Shown one piece after another: positions 1 through 29,379 of a stretch of DNA of 32,765 nt (its first letter is position 1; every line of letters begins with the position of its first letter). The translations under genes were made by a program, and so were the position numbers. The stretch is taken from the NCBI GenBank assembly GCA_001820215.1, contig MHOW01000006.1, positions 14,274 to 47,038 of the forward strand. The letters are read 5' to 3'. The DNA comes from Candidatus Staskawiczbacteria bacterium RIFCSPLOWO2_01_FULL_33_13 (GTDB lineage Bacteria; Patescibacteriota; Minisyncoccia; Minisyncoccales; Staskawiczbacteraceae). A model generated the notes under the pieces. That model did not search any database. It saw only the letters and a program-made list of their open reading frames with translations, and had not been told where the DNA came from.

Positions 1-641
1 AATAATATTTTCTCGTATAAAAAAGAAAATACATCATTGCTATGATTTTTTGTAATTAATTCTGTTTTAGGAAAATCCATAATAGAATATACGCCTTCCT
101 TCATTAAATAATTTTTATAGTTAAAATCTTCAAGCGTTATGGGAGTTTTTAGTTTTCCTGTAATTTTTATAGTATCTAAATAGTAATATTCTGGATAAGG
201 ACTTAAAGTAACTAATACCACACTCTCAAACTCATTAATTTTTACCCAGTTAAATTGTTCCGCTGAAGACGGAACATTGCCTATGGCAAATTTAACCGGG
301 TGAACTTTTAATTTTTGCATCTTATCTCTAACATCAGGTTCTTCAATAATATTGCCAATTAGGGTAATTTTTTCTGGGGTATCAATTAATTTGCTTAGTG
401 TATTATGCAAAACATTAAATTCAGAAATTTGCAGCCTTGCGCTTCCTAATATTAAAAATAGCATGCAAAATCCAATTAGCGCATAATAATTTTTATGGAA
501 AAAAATAGAAATAAAAATAGCCAAAGCTCCGAGTATTAAAAAACCCCACAAAAAAATGTGGGGAATTTTAATTAATGAAGCTAATAATATTCCTGCAATA
601 AAAGAAATGCAAAGATAAAAAAGAGTTTTAGACGAAGTCAT
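1..641 (-). CDS. comEC: ComEC/Rec2-family competence protein, N-terminal part (runs off window edge)
   Basis: Manual reverse-strand translation MTSSKTLFYLCISFIAGILLASLIKIPHIFLWGFLILGALAIFISIFFHKNYYALIGFCMLFLILGSARLQIS...; N-terminal TM segments followed by a DUF4131-like domain; no stop before the edge. Confidence 0.7.
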   Translation of the reverse strand, partial: MTSSKTLFYLCISFIAGILLASLIKIPHIFLWGFLILGALAIFISIFFHKNYYALIGFCMLFLILGSARLQISEFNVLHNTLSKLIDTPEKITLIGNIIEEPDVRDKMQKLKVHPVKFAIGNVPSSAEQFNWVKINEFESVVLVTLSPYPEYYYLDTIKITGKLKTPITLEDFNYKNYLMKEGVYSIMDFPKTELITKNHSNDVFSFLYEKIL

Positions 642-4953: not shown

Positions 4954-5126
4954 ACTGTGACTTACGAAATGCTCAAATAAAAGAAGAGTTTCTGGTCTTT
5001 TCTTCAAATTTGGATTGAAAATTCGCAATAATTATTTTATGTAGTAAACTACATAAAATAATTCTATCAAATTTTCACTTTACAAATTTGAAAAAAATAC
5101 CTAGAAAGCATTTCGTAATTCACAGT
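4954..5126. repeat. about 173-bp near-palindromic intergenic element, copy A
   Basis: Ends ACTGTGACTTACGAAATGCT / AGCATTTCGTAATTCACAGT; core ATTATTTTATGTAGT-AA-ACTACATAAAATAAT. Confidence 0.93.
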
Positions 5127-5156
5127 TATTATTTTACATCATTTTTAAAATAACAC

Positions 5157-5886: not shown

Positions 5887-6402
5887 TTATAACAATTCTT
5901 TTATTATTTTGCTTATTTCTGAATTATCTGCTTTTCCTTTTACCTTTGGCATTAATTCTGCCATTATTTTTCCTATGACTTGCCCTGAGCGCCCCGAAGG
6001 GTCTTTTAATTCCTTAGCCCCTGTAGTATCTATTGCTTCTTTAATAAGTTTTATAAGCTCATCATTTGATAATTGTTGAGGCAAATATTTTTGTAAAATT
6101 TCTATCTCTTTTTTTTCTTGATCTGCTAATTCCTGCCTATTGCCTTTTTGATATAAACTTATTGCATCTTTTCTTTTTTTAATTTCAGAGGAAATTACAT
6201 CTATGATTTGATCATCGGATAATTCTGATTTTTTGACTAAATCTTCCTCGTTTAAACCAGGGTTTTCTTTTGAAGCTTTATATCTTTTTTCTTTCTCTTT
6301 TACATTTATGGTTGACAATGCCATACGCAAAACACCCAAAGAAAATTGATTTTTGGATTTTAAAAACTCGTTGCTATCGTTTTGGATTTGCTGCTTTAAC
6401 AT
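5887..6402 (-). CDS. yqeY: GatB/YqeY domain-containing protein
   Basis: KEKEKRYK, IDVISSEIKKRKDAISLYQKGNRQELADQEKKEIEILQKYLPQQLS, IMAELMPKVKGKAD. Confidence 0.93.
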   Translation of the reverse strand: MLKQQIQNDSNEFLKSKNQFSLGVLRMALSTINVKEKEKRYKASKENPGLNEEDLVKKSELSDDQIIDVISSEIKKRKDAISLYQKGNRQELADQEKKEIEILQKYLPQQLSNDELIKLIKEAIDTTGAKELKDPSGRSGQVIGKIMAELMPKVKGKADNSEISKIIKELL

Positions 6403-8297: not shown

Positions 8298-8472
8298 AAC
8301 CTTGAATTACGAAATGCCCCATGTAAAGGCAAGTTTCAGGTCTTTTCTCTAAATCTGGGTTGAAAATTCGCAATAATTATTTTATGTAGTAAACTACATA
8401 AAATAATTCTATCAAATTTTCACCTTCCAGATTTAGAGAAAATCCCAAGAAAGCATTTCGTAATTCAAGGTT
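8298..8472. repeat. about 175-bp near-palindromic intergenic element, copy B
   Basis: Perfect ends AACCTTGAATTACGAAATGC / GCATTTCGTAATTCAAGGTT; same core as copy A; followed by a TTTAATTCAAGG duplication. Confidence 0.95.
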
Positions 8473-9265: not shown

Positions 9266-9871
9266 ATGATTATAATAACAGGACTAGGAAATCCAGGTGA
9301 AAAATTTAAACACACAAGACATAATGCAGGCTTTATGGCGCTGGATTTTTTTGCCTGCCTGCGCAGGCAGGCAAAAAAAAATGAATTCCCTGAATTTATA
9401 TTTTCTAAAAAATATAATTCTTTTATTTCTGAAAACACTTTAAACGACAATAAAATTATTCTGTTAAAACCTCAAACCTTCATGAACGAATCCGGCACCG
9501 CAGTAAAAAAGGTAATTACCCACTACAAGCTACCCACTAAAAACTTAGTAGTAGTACAGGACGACATAGATTTGCCTCTTGGAAAAATAAAGTTTTCTAA
9601 AGATTCGGGGGCGGGGGGTCACAAAGGTGTGGATTCAATTATTAATAACTTAGGCAAAAAAGATTTTATAAGATTAAAGATTGGAATTTGCCCCGTTATG
9701 CCAGAAGGCACAAAAAAACCAAAAAGCGTTGAAAAATTCGTAATTCAAAAATTTACCCCACAAGAAAAAGAAATTATCAATAATATTATAGAAGAATCCA
9801 CAAACGCCCTTAATTATTTAATTGAAAACGGTATTGAAAAAACCATGAATGAGTTTAATAATAAAAAATAA
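9266..9871 (+). CDS. pth: peptidyl-tRNA hydrolase with in-frame palindrome
   Basis: IIITGLGNPGEKFKHTRHNAGFMALD, KPQTFMNESGTAV, DDIDLPLGKIKF, GAGGHKGVDSI. Confidence 0.95.
   Translation: MIIITGLGNPGEKFKHTRHNAGFMALDFFACLRRQAKKNEFPEFIFSKKYNSFISENTLNDNKIILLKPQTFMNESGTAVKKVITHYKLPTKNLVVVQDDIDLPLGKIKFSKDSGAGGHKGVDSIINNLGKKDFIRLKIGICPVMPEGTKKPKSVEKFVIQKFTPQEKEIINNIIEESTNALNYLIENGIEKTMNEFNNKK
9346..9379. repeat. palindrome within pth
   Basis: TTTTTTTGCCTGCCTGC|GCAGGCAGGCAAAAAAA, translated as part of FFACLRRQAKK. Confidence 0.95.
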
Positions 9872-11381: not shown

Positions 11382-13370
11382 ATGGCTCAGGATAAAAGTT
11401 TAAATAAACTTTTAATTGTATCAATTACCCCCTACTTTTTAGAGAAGCAGGTTTTTTGGTTTGATGAAAACTTAGATGAAATTTTACAATCAACTAAAAC
11501 TCAATCATTTTTTCAAGACAATACAATATTTTTAAAAAAGGGTCAAAGCCACAATCTTTCTGGCTTATTAAGAAAGCTGGACGAAATGGGCTATGAAAGA
11601 GTTTTTACCATACAAGCACCGGGGGAATTTTCACAAAAAGGAGGAGTTATTGATATTTTCCCTATTAACACAAATCAAGCTATGCGCCTGGATTTTTTAG
11701 GAAATAATATTGAAAATATACAACCGCTAAATATTAAAGTTGAAAACGAACAAAACGCAAAAGATATTTTAAAGAAAAAATTAAAATCCCAAAAATTATT
11801 TTCTGACTTAAAAAATATAAAACCGGATGATTATTTAGTACATTTAGATCATGGTGTAGCAAAATTTTCCGGAATGGAAAAAATAAAAGACCATGAATAT
11901 TATGTATTAGAATACGCCCAAAATGACAAACTCTTCGTACCATTGGGATTAGAAAGAAAGCTTTCACGGTATGTAGGATTTTCTAATCCTGTTGTTTCAA
12001 GACTTGGCTCGGCATTGTGGCAAAATACAAAAAGAAAAATAAAAGAAGATGTGGAAAAACTAGCCAAAGAACTTTTAGATCTTTATGCTAAAAAAGAAAA
12101 TATTACAAGAAGCTCCTATATAAATGACAACGAACTAGAAAATGAATTAACCACCTCGTTTTTATACCAAGAAACTCCTGACCAAATTCAGGCTATTGAA
12201 GATATAAAAAATGACTTAGCCAAAGACAAGCCAATGGACAGGATAGTATGCGGAGATGTGGGTTTTGGAAAAACAGAAGTGGCAATAAGAACGGCTTTTT
12301 TGGCGGGCATCAACAACCGCCAAACCGCAATAATTTGCCCAACCACCATATTGGCAAACCAGCATTTTAATAATTTTAAAAAACGGTTTGGCGCGTTACC
12401 TTTTAACATTTCTCTCATTTCAAGGCTGCAAACAAAAAAAGAGCAAAAAAAAATTATTAAAGAGGTAAAAGAAGGCAATATTGATATTTTGATAGGAACC
12501 CATAGAATTTTGTCAGCCGATATAGAATTTAAAAATTTACAACTTTTAATTATTGATGATGAACAAAGATTTGGCGTAAAACAAAAAGAAAAATTAAGAC
12601 AAAAAAATCCTTCATTGGATATTTTAAGTTTGTCGGCAACCCCAATTCCAAGAACCATTTATTTGGCGCTTTCCTCTTTTAAAAATATCAGCTTGATGCA
12701 AACTCCACCCCAAGGCAGAAGCGCAATCAACACAAACATTTTACCCTACAATAAAAAAATAATACAACAAGCTATTCATTTTGAATTACAACGAAATGGC
12801 CAAGTGTATTTTTTGCACAATAAAATACAAACTATTGAAAAAACAAAAAGCGATTTAGAAAAACTTGTTCCGGAGGCTACAATTTCTTATATACACGGCA
12901 GAATGGATGAAAAAGAATTGATAAAAATAATGGATGATTTTTCTGGCTACGCCAGATCTCGCGAAGCGAGAGAAAAAAATAGAATTGATGTGTTGGTTGC
13001 AACTACCATTATTGAAAATGGCATAGATTTGCCCAATGTAAATACCATTATCATAGAAGATGCTTCGCGCCTTGGACTTTCCCAGGCATACCAAATAAAA
13101 GGAAGAGTGGGAAGATCCCACATTAAAAGCTTTGCCTATCTTTTTTATCCAAAAAATATCACTCCCCTGGCACGCGCAAGATTAAAAGCTTTGGAAAACG
13201 CAAACGAACTTGGTTCGGGATACGCGATTGCAATGAAAGATATGGAAATTCGAGGAGCAGGAAATATTTTAGGTAAAGAACAATCGGGAAGCATAAATAA
13301 AATTGGCTTAAACCTTTATTGCCAAATATTATCAGACGCAGTTGAAAAGATGAGAATTGTTAGTTTATAA
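11382..13370 (+). CDS. mfd: transcription-repair coupling factor Mfd, strongly shortened
   Basis: GEFSQKGGVIDIFP, LVHLDHGVAKFSGM (RID), CGDVGFGKTEVAIRTAF, SATPIPRTIYLAL, TTIIENGIDLPNVNTIIIEDA, QIKGRVGRSHIKSFAYLF, MEIRGAGNILGKEQSG. Confidence 0.93.
   Translation: MAQDKSLNKLLIVSITPYFLEKQVFWFDENLDEILQSTKTQSFFQDNTIFLKKGQSHNLSGLLRKLDEMGYERVFTIQAPGEFSQKGGVIDIFPINTNQAMRLDFLGNNIENIQPLNIKVENEQNAKDILKKKLKSQKLFSDLKNIKPDDYLVHLDHGVAKFSGMEKIKDHEYYVLEYAQNDKLFVPLGLERKLSRYVGFSNPVVSRLGSALWQNTKRKIKEDVEKLAKELLDLYAKKENITRSSYINDNELENELTTSFLYQETPDQIQAIEDIKNDLAKDKPMDRIVCGDVGFGKTEVAIRTAFLAGINNRQTAIICPTTILANQHFNNFKKRFGALPFNISLISRLQTKKEQKKIIKEVKEGNIDILIGTHRILSADIEFKNLQLLIIDDEQRFGVKQKEKLRQKNPSLDILSLSATPIPRTIYLALSSFKNISLMQTPPQGRSAINTNILPYNKKIIQQAIHFELQRNGQVYFLHNKIQTIEKTKSDLEKLVPEATISYIHGRMDEKELIKIMDDFSGYARSREAREKNRIDVLVATTIIENGIDLPNVNTIIIEDASRLGLSQAYQIKGRVGRSHIKSFAYLFYPKNITPLARARLKALENANELGSGYAIAMKDMEIRGAGNILGKEQSGSINKIGLNLYCQILSDAVEKMRIVSL
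12942..12971. repeat. double-hairpin insertion in mfd
   Basis: TCTGGC-TAC-GCCAGA followed by TCTCGC-GAA-GCGAGA, in frame (SGYARSREAR). Confidence 0.9.
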
Positions 13371-13771: not shown

Positions 13772-14428
13772 ATGCTTAAAACTATACCCAAGTTAATCAA
13801 TAAAATAATAAAGGTTTTAATAGTAAGTGATTTTTTCCTCAATTTGGGATGGGGCCTAATGGGGCCTGTTTTCGCTATTTTTATTGTTCAAAATATTACT
13901 ATTGGAAGCATTTCTGAAGCAGCTAAAATTGCGGGGTTTGCTTCATTATTTTTTTGGATAACGAGATCAATACTACAAATACCAATTGGATACTATCTGG
14001 ATAAAAATCATGGAGAGAAGGATGATTATTGGTTTATGGTAGTAGGTACTTTTATGATGGCTTTCGTTCCATTGGGTTATATTTTTTCTCGTCAACCATG
14101 GCATATTTATTTATTACAAATCTTTTATGCAATTGCTGCTGCGATCACTGTTGCCCCATATTCAGCGATATTTACAAGACATATTGATAAAGGGAAAGAA
14201 GCAATGGCATGGAGCACATGGAGTACATTTATAGGCATTGGTGCAGGTCTTGCCGGCGGAATAGGTGGTATTGTTGCGTCAAGTATTGGTTTTACATCCG
14301 TTTTTGTTTTCGTAAGTGTTTTCACAATACTATCAGGATTTCTATTATTAATTATTAAAGATGATATCTCTATTAAAAACAAAAGCATTATAAGGATACC
14401 CCTAGAGAGAACAATTATAAAGCAATAA
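13772..14428 (+). CDS. MFS-like membrane protein, half-size
   Basis: 218 aa, about 6 TM segments; FFLNLGWGLMGPVFAIFI, IPIGYYLDK. Confidence 0.75.
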   Translation: MLKTIPKLINKIIKVLIVSDFFLNLGWGLMGPVFAIFIVQNITIGSISEAAKIAGFASLFFWITRSILQIPIGYYLDKNHGEKDDYWFMVVGTFMMAFVPLGYIFSRQPWHIYLLQIFYAIAAAITVAPYSAIFTRHIDKGKEAMAWSTWSTFIGIGAGLAGGIGGIVASSIGFTSVFVFVSVFTILSGFLLLIIKDDISIKNKSIIRIPLERTIIKQ

Positions 14429-16194
14429 TGAAAAACCAAGAAATAGCTAAAATTTTTTATGAAATAGCAAGATTTTTACAGATAGATAAAGTTGCATTCA
14501 AGCCATATGCTTACGAGCGCGCAGCTGTTTCTTTGGAAGCAATAAAAGATGATGTGGCCCAAATATACATTAAAGGAGGAAGAAAAATGCTTGAAGAAAT
14601 TGAAGGAATTGGCAAAGCCATGTCCGACCACATAGAAGAATATTTAAAAACAGGAAAAATAAAATTGTACGAGGAATTTAAGAAAAAATTGCCTGTTCAA
14701 ATGGACGAGCTAGTAAAAGTTGAGGGGCTGGGACCCCGCAAAGTAAAAGTTCTTTACCAAGAATTGGGTATTAAAAATATAAAAGATTTAGAAAAAGCGG
14801 TAAAAAAACATACTATAGCCCCCTTATTTGGATTTGGTGAAAAAACAGAAAAAAATATTATGCAGGGTTTGGAATTTTTAAAACAAAGCAAGGGTAGATC
14901 TTTAATTTCAGACATAAAACCTGTGGCAATGGAGGTGTATAAAAAACTAGAAAATTTAAAAGAGGTGCAAAAAATAAGTTTAGCAGGTTCTTTAAGGAGA
15001 GGCAAAGAAACTATTGGTGATGTAGATTTTTTGGTGGTTTCCCGCCCAGATAAAAAATATGGGCGAGGCTCGCCCCGCGAGGCGGCAAAAAACACCCAGA
15101 AGATAATGGATTTTTTTGTTGCTTTGCCAGGTGTGAAAAAAATTTGGGGTAAAGGAGGCACCAAAGCTTCGGTGCATATGGCAGACGGCTTTGATATGGA
15201 TTTACGAATAGTGCCCGAAAAAAGCTATGGAGCGGCCCTACAGTATTTTACAGGTTCTCAGGCCCACAATATTGCCACAAGAAAAATCGCTATTGATAAA
15301 GGCTTAAAATTAAGCGAGTATGGATTATTTAAAGGAAGTAAAATAATTGCTGGAAAAACTGAGGAAGAAGTATATAGGGCGCTGGGCTTACCCTATATAG
15401 CGCCAGAATTGCGGGAAGATCAAGGAGAAATTGATACAGCATTAAAAAATACGCTGCCAGATTTGGTAGAGTTAAAAGATATTAAGGGAGACTTGCATTG
15501 CCATTCCAATTGGAATGGCGGAGAAAATTCAATTGAAGTGATGGCAAGGTCCGCTATGGATTTGGGGTATGAATATATTGGTATATCAGATCATACAAAA
15601 TTTTTAAAAATTGAAAACGGCTTAGATGAAAAAAAACTGCTAAAACAAAAAGAAGCAATTAAAAAAATAAATGAAAACTATAAAAAGAAGGGAATTAAAT
15701 TTAGGGTTTTGCATGGATGCGAGGCAAATATATTAAACGACGGTTCAATTGATATTAAAGATGAAGTGTTAGCCCAACTTGATTATGTGATTGCGGGGGT
15801 ACATTCAACTTTAAAAATGGAAAAAGGGGAATTAATGGAACGAATTGAAAAAGCGATGAAAAACCCAAATGTGGATATTTTTGCCCATCCAACCGGAAGA
15901 ATTGTGGGCCAAAGAGATGAGTATCAAATTGATTTTGACAAAATATTACAAATAGCAAAAAATACCGGTACTATTTTAGAAATTAATTCATCTTCCAGAT
16001 TAGACTTGCGTGATTTATATATAAGAAGAGCAAAAGCCGAAGGCGTAAAAATGATCATTAATACCGATTCACACAAAAAAGAACAGTTATTACTTATGGA
16101 ATACGGGGCAATGCAAGCACGAAGAGGTTGGGCAGAAAAAAACGATATTATAAATACTTTGCCGGCAGAAGAGTTATTAAAATCTTTAAAATAA
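14428..16194 (+). CDS. polX: DNA polymerase/3'-5' exonuclease PolX (pol beta-like plus PHP domain)
   Basis: HhH motifs, SLAGSLRRGKETIGDVDFLV, GAALQYFTGSQAHN, PHP GDLHCHSNWNGGENSIE. Confidence 0.95.
   Translation: MKNQEIAKIFYEIARFLQIDKVAFKPYAYERAAVSLEAIKDDVAQIYIKGGRKMLEEIEGIGKAMSDHIEEYLKTGKIKLYEEFKKKLPVQMDELVKVEGLGPRKVKVLYQELGIKNIKDLEKAVKKHTIAPLFGFGEKTEKNIMQGLEFLKQSKGRSLISDIKPVAMEVYKKLENLKEVQKISLAGSLRRGKETIGDVDFLVVSRPDKKYGRGSPREAAKNTQKIMDFFVALPGVKKIWGKGGTKASVHMADGFDMDLRIVPEKSYGAALQYFTGSQAHNIATRKIAIDKGLKLSEYGLFKGSKIIAGKTEEEVYRALGLPYIAPELREDQGEIDTALKNTLPDLVELKDIKGDLHCHSNWNGGENSIEVMARSAMDLGYEYIGISDHTKFLKIENGLDEKKLLKQKEAIKKINENYKKKGIKFRVLHGCEANILNDGSIDIKDEVLAQLDYVIAGVHSTLKMEKGELMERIEKAMKNPNVDIFAHPTGRIVGQRDEYQIDFDKILQIAKNTGTILEINSSSRLDLRDLYIRRAKAEGVKMIINTDSHKKEQLLLMEYGAMQARRGWAEKNDIINTLPAEELLKSLK
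15061..15085. repeat. double-hairpin insertion in polX
   Basis: GGGCGA-GGC-TCGCCC then (C)CGC-GAG-GCG(G), in frame (GRGSPREAA). Confidence 0.85.
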
Positions 16195-19161: not shown

Positions 19162-19332
19162 ACTTTGAATTATGAAATGCTTTCTAGGTATTTTTTTCAA
19201 ATTTTAGAATGAAAATTTGATAGAATTATTTTATGTAGTTTACTACATAAAATAATTATTGCGAGTTTTCAACTAAAATTTGGAAAAAAGACCAGAAACT
19301 TGATTTCCAAAGGGCATTTTGTAATTCAAAGT
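19162..19332. repeat. about 171-bp near-palindromic intergenic element, copy D (inverted relative to A-C)
   Basis: ACTTTGAATTATGAAATGC / GCATTTTGTAATTCAAAGT; TGATAGAATTATTTTATGTAGTTTACTACATAAAATAATTATTGCG is the exact reverse complement of the copy A core. Confidence 0.92.
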
Positions 19333-26436: not shown

Positions 26437-29379
26437 ATGGCATATAATTTTCCAGAAGAAGAAAAAGGAATTCTCAAGTTTTGGGAGGATAACAAAATTT
26501 TTGAGAAATTGCGACAAAAAAATAAAGGTAAAAAACCTTGGTCGTTTTTAGATGGACCAATTACCGCCAACAACCCAATGGGCGTACACCATGCATGGGG
26601 CAGAACTTATAAAGATTTATTCCAACGATATTTTGCTATGAAAGGCTTTGATCAAAGATATCAAAACGGATTTGATTGCCAAGGGCTTCATGTTGAGGTT
26701 GAGGTTGAAAAGGAATTGGGCTTTAAAAACAAAAAAGATATTGAGGCTTATGGTATTGGCGCGTTTATTGAAAAGTGCAAAGAACGGGTAAGAAAATATT
26801 CTGCCATACAAACCTTGCAATCCGTAAGATTGGGCCAATGGATGGATTGGGAAAATTCTTATTTTACAATGTCTGATGAAAATAATTATACAATTTGGCA
26901 CTTTTTAAAAAAATGCCACCAAAAGGGCTACTTATATAAAGGAAGGGATTCTGTACCATGGTGCCCACGATGTGGAACTGCTATAAGTCAGCACGAAATT
27001 TTAACAGAAGAATATAAAGAAATTGTGCACGATTCGGTATATTTTGGCCTGCCCTTAATTAATAAAAAAGATGAAAATCTTTTAGTATGGACTACTACCC
27101 CATGGACGCTTCCGGCTAATATAGCAGTCGCGGTTGATGAAAAAATTGATTATACGCTTGTTGAAAATGAACAAGGTAAATTTTGGATAGCTAAAGATTT
27201 AGTTGAAAAAATTTTTAAAGAAAAATTTAAAATTTTAAAAACCGTAAAAGGAAAAAATTTAGTGGGATTAAAATATTCATTTGCTTTTAATGACTTGCCA
27301 AGAGTAAAAGAGGTGGCTCAAAAAAATCCTACTACATTTCATACAATCATTTCAACTGATGACAGAATTATGCCCATTAACACCGAAGATGGAACTGGCC
27401 TTGTGCATACTGCCGTTTCAGCTGGCCAAGAAGATTTTCAATTAGGTAAAAAATTAGGATTACCTTTAATAGAAGTTATAGGCGAGGATGCAAGTTATTT
27501 GGAAGGCTTGGGTGAATTTTCAGGGCAAAATGCTAAGAAAAATCCAAAGATAATCCTTGATTATCTAACACGGAAGGATGCGGAAATTGACACGGAAAAA
27601 CGCGGAAACTGGGTGTTTAAAATTTTGCCTTATAAACACAAATACCCCACTTGTTGGAGATGTAAAACCGAATTAGTTTGGCGTGTAGTTGATGAGTGGT
27701 ATATTTCCATGGATAAGCTGCGAAAACCCCTAGAGAATATTGTTAAAGAGATTAATTGGATTCCGGCTTTTGGAAAAGAAAGAGAATTGGATTGGATAAA
27801 AAATATGCACGACTGGTTGATTTCCAAAAAAAGGTATTGGGGGCTAACACTTCCTATTTATGAATGTGAATGTGGCCATTTTGAAGTTATTGGTAGTAAA
27901 GAAGAATTAAAGAAACGAGCCATTGAAGGCTGGGAGCAATTTGATGGGAACTCTCCCCATAGGCCATGGGTGGATGCCGTCAAAATAAAATGTAAAAAAT
28001 GTAAAAAAACTGTTGATAGAATTAAGGATGTGGGAAGCCCTTGGCTAGACGCGGGCATTGTGCCCTTTTCAACTATCCAGTATTTTTCTGATAAGAAGTA
28101 TTGGAAAAAATGGTTTCCGGTGGATTTGATTTCCGAATCTTTCCCCGGGCAATTTAAAAATTGGTTTTATTCTTTATTGGTTATGTCAGCAGTACTAGAA
28201 GAAACAGCACCTATGAAGACGATTTTTGGATATGCTTCGGTCAGGGACGAAAAAGGTGAAGAAATGCACAAGTCCAAGGGAAACGCCATTTGGTTTGACG
28301 AGGCAGTAGAAAAAATTGGTGCTGATCCGATTCGTTGGTTTTATATGAGATCAAATCCAGCAGAAAATGTAAACTTTGGCTATCTTTTGATAGACGAAAT
28401 AAAAAGGAAATTATTGACTCTACAAAATGTATATACATTTTTTACCACCTATGTTGATAAAAAAGATTATCCAATTGATGTAAAACTTACATCAGAAAAT
28501 ATTTTAGATAAGTGGATTATTTCAAAGCTGGGCCACCTTATTTTACTAGTAGAATTTAACTTGGACAAATATGGCGTAGCAAAAAGCACGCTGGCAATAG
28601 AAGATTTTTTTATTAATGATTTATCAATTTGGTACTTAAGAAGATCAAGAAAAAGATTTCATCCTTCAGTTGATGCTAAAGAGCAAGCTAAAAGAAAAGA
28701 GGCTATAGAAACCTTGTATTATGTACTATTAAATATTGCAAAAATTATTGCTCCGATAATGCCCTTTTTTGCTGAACAAATGTACCAAAGTTTAAAAACA
28801 GAGAAAATGCCAGAATCAATTCACTTGTGTGATTGGCCAAAAACAAAAATAATTAATACTGATTTAGAGCTTGAGCAAAAAATGGATGAAGTAAGAAATA
28901 TTGTAGCACTTGCCCTAGCTGACCGTTCGGCCAAAGCAATTAAAATAAGGCAACCTTTGGCAAAATTATCAATAAAAAATAAAAAATCTAAAATTAAAGG
29001 CAATGAAGAATTAATAAATCTTATAAAAGACGAATTAAATGTGAAAGAAATAGTATTTAATGATAAAATAAAAGAAGATATAGAGCTGGATATTAATATT
29101 ACAGAAGAATTAAAAGAAGAAGGAATAGTGAGAGATATAATAAGATTTGTCCAAGATATGCGAAAAGAAGCGGAGCTGAAGCCAAGTGATGAAATTTTAA
29201 TTAGTTTTTCTGGATCGCAAAAAATCATTAAAATCGTGGAAAATAAAAAAGATTTGATTTTAAAAGATATTAAGGCAAAAATGCTTTCAAACGAAAAAGA
29301 AATTAATGGAAAATTCTTAGAAAAAGAATTTTCGGTCGATATTGAAAAATCATTAATTAAAATTCACCTGGTCAAATAA
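26437..29379 (+). CDS. ileS: isoleucyl-tRNA synthetase
   Basis: DGPITANNPMGVHHAWGRTYKD, FDCQGLHVEVEVEKELG, WTTTPWTLPANIAVAV, MHKSKGNAIWFDEAV, anticodon-binding domain. Confidence 0.95.
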   Translation: MAYNFPEEEKGILKFWEDNKIFEKLRQKNKGKKPWSFLDGPITANNPMGVHHAWGRTYKDLFQRYFAMKGFDQRYQNGFDCQGLHVEVEVEKELGFKNKKDIEAYGIGAFIEKCKERVRKYSAIQTLQSVRLGQWMDWENSYFTMSDENNYTIWHFLKKCHQKGYLYKGRDSVPWCPRCGTAISQHEILTEEYKEIVHDSVYFGLPLINKKDENLLVWTTTPWTLPANIAVAVDEKIDYTLVENEQGKFWIAKDLVEKIFKEKFKILKTVKGKNLVGLKYSFAFNDLPRVKEVAQKNPTTFHTIISTDDRIMPINTEDGTGLVHTAVSAGQEDFQLGKKLGLPLIEVIGEDASYLEGLGEFSGQNAKKNPKIILDYLTRKDAEIDTEKRGNWVFKILPYKHKYPTCWRCKTELVWRVVDEWYISMDKLRKPLENIVKEINWIPAFGKERELDWIKNMHDWLISKKRYWGLTLPIYECECGHFEVIGSKEELKKRAIEGWEQFDGNSPHRPWVDAVKIKCKKCKKTVDRIKDVGSPWLDAGIVPFSTIQYFSDKKYWKKWFPVDLISESFPGQFKNWFYSLLVMSAVLEETAPMKTIFGYASVRDEKGEEMHKSKGNAIWFDEAVEKIGADPIRWFYMRSNPAENVNFGYLLIDEIKRKLLTLQNVYTFFTTYVDKKDYPIDVKLTSENILDKWIISKLGHLILLVEFNLDKYGVAKSTLAIEDFFINDLSIWYLRRSRKRFHPSVDAKEQAKRKEAIETLYYVLLNIAKIIAPIMPFFAEQMYQSLKTEKMPESIHLCDWPKTKIINTDLELEQKMDEVRNIVALALADRSAKAIKIRQPLAKLSIKNKKSKIKGNEELINLIKDELNVKEIVFNDKIKEDIELDINITEELKEEGIVRDIIRFVQDMRKEAELKPSDEILISFSGSQKIIKIVENKKDLILKDIKAKMLSNEKEINGKFLEKEFSVDIEKSLIKIHLVK
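27568..27611. repeat. two tandem 22-bp units inside ileS
   Basis: ACACGGAAGGATGCGGAAATTG / ACACGGAAAAACGCGGAAACTG (18/22 identical). Confidence 0.9.

Follow-up and report, generated by a model that had tools for sequence, protein, structure and literature searches.

Palindromic elements of Rickettsia (RPE) are reportedly the subject of Ogata et al. 2000, and the double-hairpin elements (DHE) of Allomyces mitochondria reportedly that of Paquin et al. 2000. RPE are palindromic repeats of 105-146 bp that lie in-frame in conserved protein genes, where they are tolerated, without a known transposase, and protein-coding palindromic repeats of Wolbachia are cited alongside them (PMC2229807). The repetitive hairpin elements (RHE) of sponges have copies that differ by complementary substitutions and are believed to be mobile (PMC2800124). 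REPINs are doublets of REP sequences able to fold as two hairpins (PMC3116915), and the mitochondria of Nematomorpha contain perfect inverted repeats of up to 284 bp in coding sequence, both arms of which encode conserved protein (PMC6649704).

The locus described here lies in the family-X DNA polymerase gene (polX) of Candidatus Staskawiczbacteria bacterium RIFCSPLOWO2_01_FULL_33_13 (genome G000, 697,532 bp, 33% GC in sampled stretches), whose named near relatives are Candidatus Staskawiczbacteria (Patescibacteria). The window, that is, the whole stretch of DNA analysed, comprises 32,765 nt (contig C6, positions 14274-47038). Its relevant features, in window coordinates, are as follows.

11382-13370, plus strand: mfd-like gene that hosts the second element, with helicase, RID and UvrB-interaction domains.
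12942-12971, plus strand: 30-nt double hairpin within mfd, TCTGGC-tac-GCCAGA TCTCGC-gaa-GCGAGA, unrelated to the one in polX.
14428-16194, plus strand: polX, intact open reading frame (ORF) for a bacterial family-X DNA polymerase with a PHP domain, host gene of the first element.
15042-15086 (15041-15085 is equivalent), plus strand: double-hairpin element of 45 nt, CCGCCCAGATAAAAAATATGGGCGAGGCTCGCCCCGCGAGGCGGC, recognised by its match to the family pattern and by a 15-aa gap in relatives.
15043-15065, plus strand: hairpin 1, CGCCCA (15043-15048), tip GATAAAAAATA and TGGGCG (15060-15065), from folding and from covariation at the equivalent positions of 69 copies.
15061-15074, plus strand: invariant core or linker GGGCGAGGCTCGCC, the search key, matched 46 times among the order's 147 genomes and 0 times by the control.
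15069-15084, plus strand: hairpin 2, family clamp CGCC (15071-15074), tip CCGCGA and GGCG (15081-15084), from the family plan, covariation and folding.

The polX product has Pfam palm, thumb, HhH and PHP domains, its closest solved structure is 3au2 (E=5e-128), and the catalytic residues D198, D200 and D258 are invariant across the alignment. When 15042-15086 was removed in silico, GTGGTTTC was joined to AAAAAAC and the translation became VVSKNTQKIMDFF (VVS/KNTQKIMDFF, with the slash at the junction), where the relatives read VVSKNPKKVMDFF. In the first aligned set, the loop had no insert in all but two of the 29 other genomes, and the two exceptions (G008 and G013) carried different inserts in the same loop. 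A wider PolX set gave, among the matches listed, mostly an empty loop again and two more insert-bearing loci (L121 and L119). In the AlphaFold model the insert falls in a loop of low confidence (pLDDT<50 at 211-213) leading from the strand at 198-205 to the helix at 216-231. The 45-nt segment is evidently an insertion, and its two placements are equivalent because a C stands at both ends.

As single-stranded DNA, the polX element folds into two hairpins with one mismatch in hairpin 1 (-14.6 kcal/mol, z=-3.15); in this copy, hairpin 2 has an alternative pairing of CTCGC (15069-15073) with GCGAG (15077-15081). The first-pass annotation had placed two hairpins at 15061-15085. By both the fold score and the core count the feature exceeds chance, and the sequences concerned, GGGCGAGGCTCGCCC and CGCGAGGCG, are indeed present on the plus strand at 15061-15083, reading GRGSPREA. 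Their extent and parsing had to be revised: the element spans 15042-15086, the 5ʹ arm CCGCCC (15042-15047) had been overlooked, and GGGCGA-GGC-TCGCC, taken for a hairpin, is in fact the conserved stretch that links the two hairpins. The same annotation had proposed a comparison of orthologues for insertion/absence polymorphism, which was found for both genes, and for exact boundaries and any target duplication; the comparison set the boundaries of the 45 nt in polX and revealed no clear target-site duplication at the element boundaries, where the ambiguity is limited to a single C at most.

The polX element belongs to a dispersed family with the plan C-CCGCC, tip 1, GGGCGAGGCTCGCC, tip 2, GGCGGC, comparison of which rests on species-level metagenome-assembled genomes. 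The core occurred in 28 of the 147 genomes of the order, with no match for the reversed control. The full-length pattern, CCGCCN{1,28}GGGCGAGGCTCGCCN{3,30}GGCGGC, gave 69 non-overlapping copies of 30-63 nt in 33 of 384 genomes of the class (reversed control 0) and was carried by 7 of 380 genomes sampled phylum-wide, all these counts being lower bounds with the core matched exactly. Only one full copy was present in the source genome, and copies of the family may have arrived by gene exchange. Flanking positions favoured T C ^ A, with C at -1 in 65, T at -2 in 42 and A at +1 in 32 of 68 copies; the C at -1 may be part of the element, part of the target or a 1-nt duplication. Phage carriage was considered as a vector and dropped, the full pattern being found on 2 viral contigs in the whole of IMG/VR, with no sign of a phage vector.

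Among the 69 copies the tips vary widely and their letters still pair. Watson-Crick pairing exceeded that of shuffled partners at pairs 2-5 of hairpin 1 and pairs 1-5 of hairpin 2 (p<=0.0005 to 0.0015, with shuffles that ignore the kinship of copies); pair 1 of hairpin 1 is almost invariably C-G, and the covariation covers nine variable pairs. Both hairpins are maintained through compensatory change. Copy length was a multiple of 3 in 55 of 69 copies (p=3e-15), 50 of 72 copies lay inside ORFs of at least 200 aa by a crude ORF criterion, and copies used five of the six frames and both orientations. A bias towards multiples of 3 combined with the use of five frames therefore indicates an element acting at the DNA level and filtered by reading-frame selection. 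Comparison of homologues revealed element-shaped gaps in other ORFs, including L270 and L271, which from inspection of their sequences we take to be ATP synthase beta-like and TrmD-like, respectively. Adjacent double hairpins numbered 6 in 262 kb of the source genome versus 0 in Markov-shuffled sequence. On contig C6 of the source genome, 13 of 54 well-supported in-frame inserts of conserved genes, drawn from sampled stretches, contained a GC-rich hairpin, compared to 2.0% of matched control segments (p=1e-9), one of the 13 being an antisense shadow of the polX insert.

The polX loop has been entered repeatedly. At the very nucleotide used in the source genome (TC^AAAAAAC), the G008 gene carries a different double hairpin of 30 nt, CTCGCC-aga-GGCGAG TTCGCC-ttc-GGCGAA, whose removal gives VVSKNSEKVMD. 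In Patescibacteria CR_Bin_053 (L121), the polX family is represented by a copy of 33 nt, which lies 9 nt beyond that site and whose removal gives VISKNPKKIMD; G013 and L119 have palindromic inserts of other kinds within the loop. In the tree of PolX and Mfd, G006, which has no insert in its PolX, is placed together with G008 (support 96), and the source genome lies outside the remaining genus members; the insertions in G008 and the source genome are therefore independent, and common ancestry of the two was ruled out. From the tree and the alignments, the loop was evidently struck independently at least three times (source genome, G008 and CR_Bin_053), twice at the same nucleotide. The simplest account would be a permissive loop together with a target preference.

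The mfd element, TCTGGCnnnGCCAGATCTCGCnnnGCGAGA (TCTGGC-nnn-GCCAGA-TCTCGC-nnn-GCGAGA), had 11 exact copies with variable loops, spread over 5 of 247 genomes from the order (0 for the control), and a fold score of z=-4.14 as single-stranded DNA. Its removal gives MDDF/EKNRIDVLV, and no other aligned Mfd had it among the matches listed. In G008, the mfd open frame (L188) is broken by one in-frame TAA. The first-pass annotation had joined the polX and mfd elements in one coding-compatible palindromic family on account of a shared Arg-Glu-Ala frame. Such elements do exist, but these two are not copies of one; because their cores and lengths differ, they are best assigned to two different families. 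Both do read Arg-Glu-Ala, which is incidental because CGC-GAR-GCG simply encodes it, and is uninformative on descent, the polX family being read in five frames. The predicted enrichment of CGCGARGCG did not materialise, with 3 occurrences in the 697,532-bp genome versus 5 for the reversed control, and the motif was dropped as a family marker. A second-order Markov model gave 0.2 expected versus 3 observed in 262 kb, an excess that arises because all three copies sit in double hairpins (mfd, polX and contig C24 near 22820), which represent three different sequence families.

Other repeats were observed in the source genome. A third type, with an outer stem ACCCGGTTAAAT...ATTTAACCGGGT around two inner hairpins that vary from copy to copy, occurs in ORFs at window 244-301, at G000:C6:77307-77375 (a gene presumably resembling holA) and on C24 near 22820. 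A palindrome with a 15-bp stem, TTTTTTTGCCTGCCT-GCGC-AGGCAGGCAAAAAAA, lies in-frame within the peptidyl-tRNA hydrolase gene (window 9346-9379), and a CCCTTCG...CTCAGGG-type element lies within a YqeY-like gene (window 5983-6001); about 95 copies of the latter family were counted across 12 of the 13 genus members, against 0 for the control. A repeat-like, non-palindromic insert (CACGGAAAAACGCGGAAAC) was seen in a class I tRNA synthetase gene of the I/L/M/V type by Pfam (window 27577-27603), with a similar repeat at C6:122556. Window 4958-5127 and 8303-8472 form a 170-nt copy pair of 86% identity that contains the palindrome ATTTTATGTAGTaaACTACATAAAAT, with a partial third copy at 19192-19274.

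We consider it likely that the polX insert belongs to a palindromic element of Patescibacteria that is short (30-63 nt), non-autonomous and built of two GC-clamped hairpins side by side. Such an element would spread in DNA, and genes would tolerate it where the frame is kept and the loop is permissive. Fixed ends, a fixed linker and spread across unrelated genes together require copying from a template, and tips that change yet stay paired require a process that recognises the folded strand. A single-strand route would fit both. The element would move as a folded single strand, probably by means of an enzyme supplied in trans or by copying at the replication fork, and would weakly prefer TC^AA targets; copies that damage proteins would afterwards be purged by selection, and the effect on the host is presumed to be neutral to slightly harmful.

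Alternatively, the palindromes could arise in place, without transposition, by template switching (fold-back synthesis) on replicating single-stranded DNA, with cores shared through common templates or gene exchange. Tips that vary among copies and still pair perfectly or almost so would be expected from such a process, as would the absence of target duplication. Three TrmD-like copies also speak for it: L271, L356 and L358 have a near-identical 30-nt insert at the same site in three genomes of two families, in which the 5ʹ arm CGCCCTGAA...TTC is conserved host sequence (RPE[IV]F) and the insert opens with the complement, AGGGCG. The host-derived arm, which simple cut-and-paste would not account for, hints at fold-back synthesis. 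However, a common template is needed for an identical 14-nt core and fixed outer ends (CCGCC/GGCGGC) to recur across 33 genomes and in many genes unrelated to one another, and the conserved C at -1 and the weak target bias also count against the alternative, which we regard as unlikely. A further, rather speculative idea, to which we give slightly less credence, is that the double-hairpin elements of Patescibacteria copy structure and not exact sequence, the tips being rewritten at or after insertion by fold-back synthesis or a putative single-strand transposase, so that the folded shape would be the replicating unit.

It is also doubtful, and a little more so, that the element is a REPIN moved by the Y1 tyrosine transposase known as RAYT. 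Besides the two-hairpin fold of REPINs, the abundance of Y1 genes favours this reading: they were present in 8 of 10 carrier genomes, many with private flanking palindromes. However, none of the 17 Y1 loci in the 8 carrier genomes was flanked by a polX-family element, G085 has 6 core copies and no Y1 match, and copies lie chiefly within ORFs and not in extragenic positions. Among the 17, the inner core, GCGAGGCTCGC, occurs only at L288, roughly 480 nt beyond the palindromes that flank its Y1 gene. The source genome has a RAYT-like Y1 gene of its own (G000:C6:77891-78709; L285, L293), with the palindrome CGACGCCCGACGTCG on both sides and in-frame inside its ORF. All 3 copies of this REP lie in or beside that gene, and it therefore offers no explanation for the polX insert. 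Four dispersed copies of CGACGCCCGACGTCG were observed in G009. Y1 genes of other Patescibacteria (L278, L279, L281, L284, L287-L290) each have a distinct flanking palindrome, such as CACAGGTCCGACCTGTG and CGGAGTCCCGGACTCCG, in a REPIN/RAYT-like arrangement.

A regulatory or structural mRNA element, acting for example in stability or pausing and retained for the benefit of the host, would suit stable, covarying hairpins, but is very improbable for a family found in unrelated genes and in either orientation to the reading frame, patchy across genomes and with orthologous sites empty in nearly all relatives. An ordinary lineage-specific loop extension with palindromes by chance has practically nothing to commend it: loop length does vary naturally in some relatives (L148, L151, L153 and L155), but removal of the insert restores the conserved sequence exactly, and the existence of a dispersed family, with controls of 0, refutes it.

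In the open-access literature, which was the scope of the search, we found no earlier description of palindromic inserts in Patescibacteria, and the literal sequence CTTCGACAAGCTCAGG appeared in no paper. With related copies in many other genes across the phylum, the double hairpin looks like an undescribed type of coding-tolerated selfish DNA. Although Patescibacteria have small, streamlined genomes, their core genes (among them repair, tRNA-related and ATP-synthase-like genes) harbour palindromic mini-elements of several families. The protein-coding selfish palindromes of Rickettsia and Wolbachia thereby gain a counterpart in a phylum that is large and not related to them. The dozens of copies, whose boundaries are nearly exact, whose sites are empty in relatives and whose tips covary, offer a clean test set on which an old question, the spread of coding palindromes without a transposase, becomes directly testable. 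For annotation, caution is advised: short lineage-specific inserts in such proteins are often mobile-element debris and not functional loops.

Compared with known systems, the polX family shares with RPE its in-frame insertion within conserved protein-coding genes (PolX and other ORFs), but differs in its length, its two hairpins on a fixed linker, its phylum and its use of five frames; by size it falls outside RPE as these are described (PMC2229807). With REPIN/RAYT (PMC3116915) it has in common short non-autonomous palindromic pairs, folding into a two-hairpin clover and carrier genomes that also have Y1 transposases. It is nevertheless no member of that system, being unlinked to any tested Y1 gene and not predominantly extragenic, and having one fixed linker with variable tips in place of the two conserved REPs of extragenic REPINs. 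Like the coding palindromes of Nematomorpha, it maintains inverted repeats within coding sequence, but there both arms encode conserved protein sequence, whereas the polX palindrome is an extra insert. Mitochondrial DHE and RHE, compared here by description, likewise have two adjacent hairpins with covarying stems; they are organellar and mostly intergenic, whereas the polX family is bacterial, lies mostly in ORFs and keeps the frame. In function, the polX element thus appears to resemble RPE and the mitochondrial double-hairpin elements most, while differing from them in size, sequence and host.
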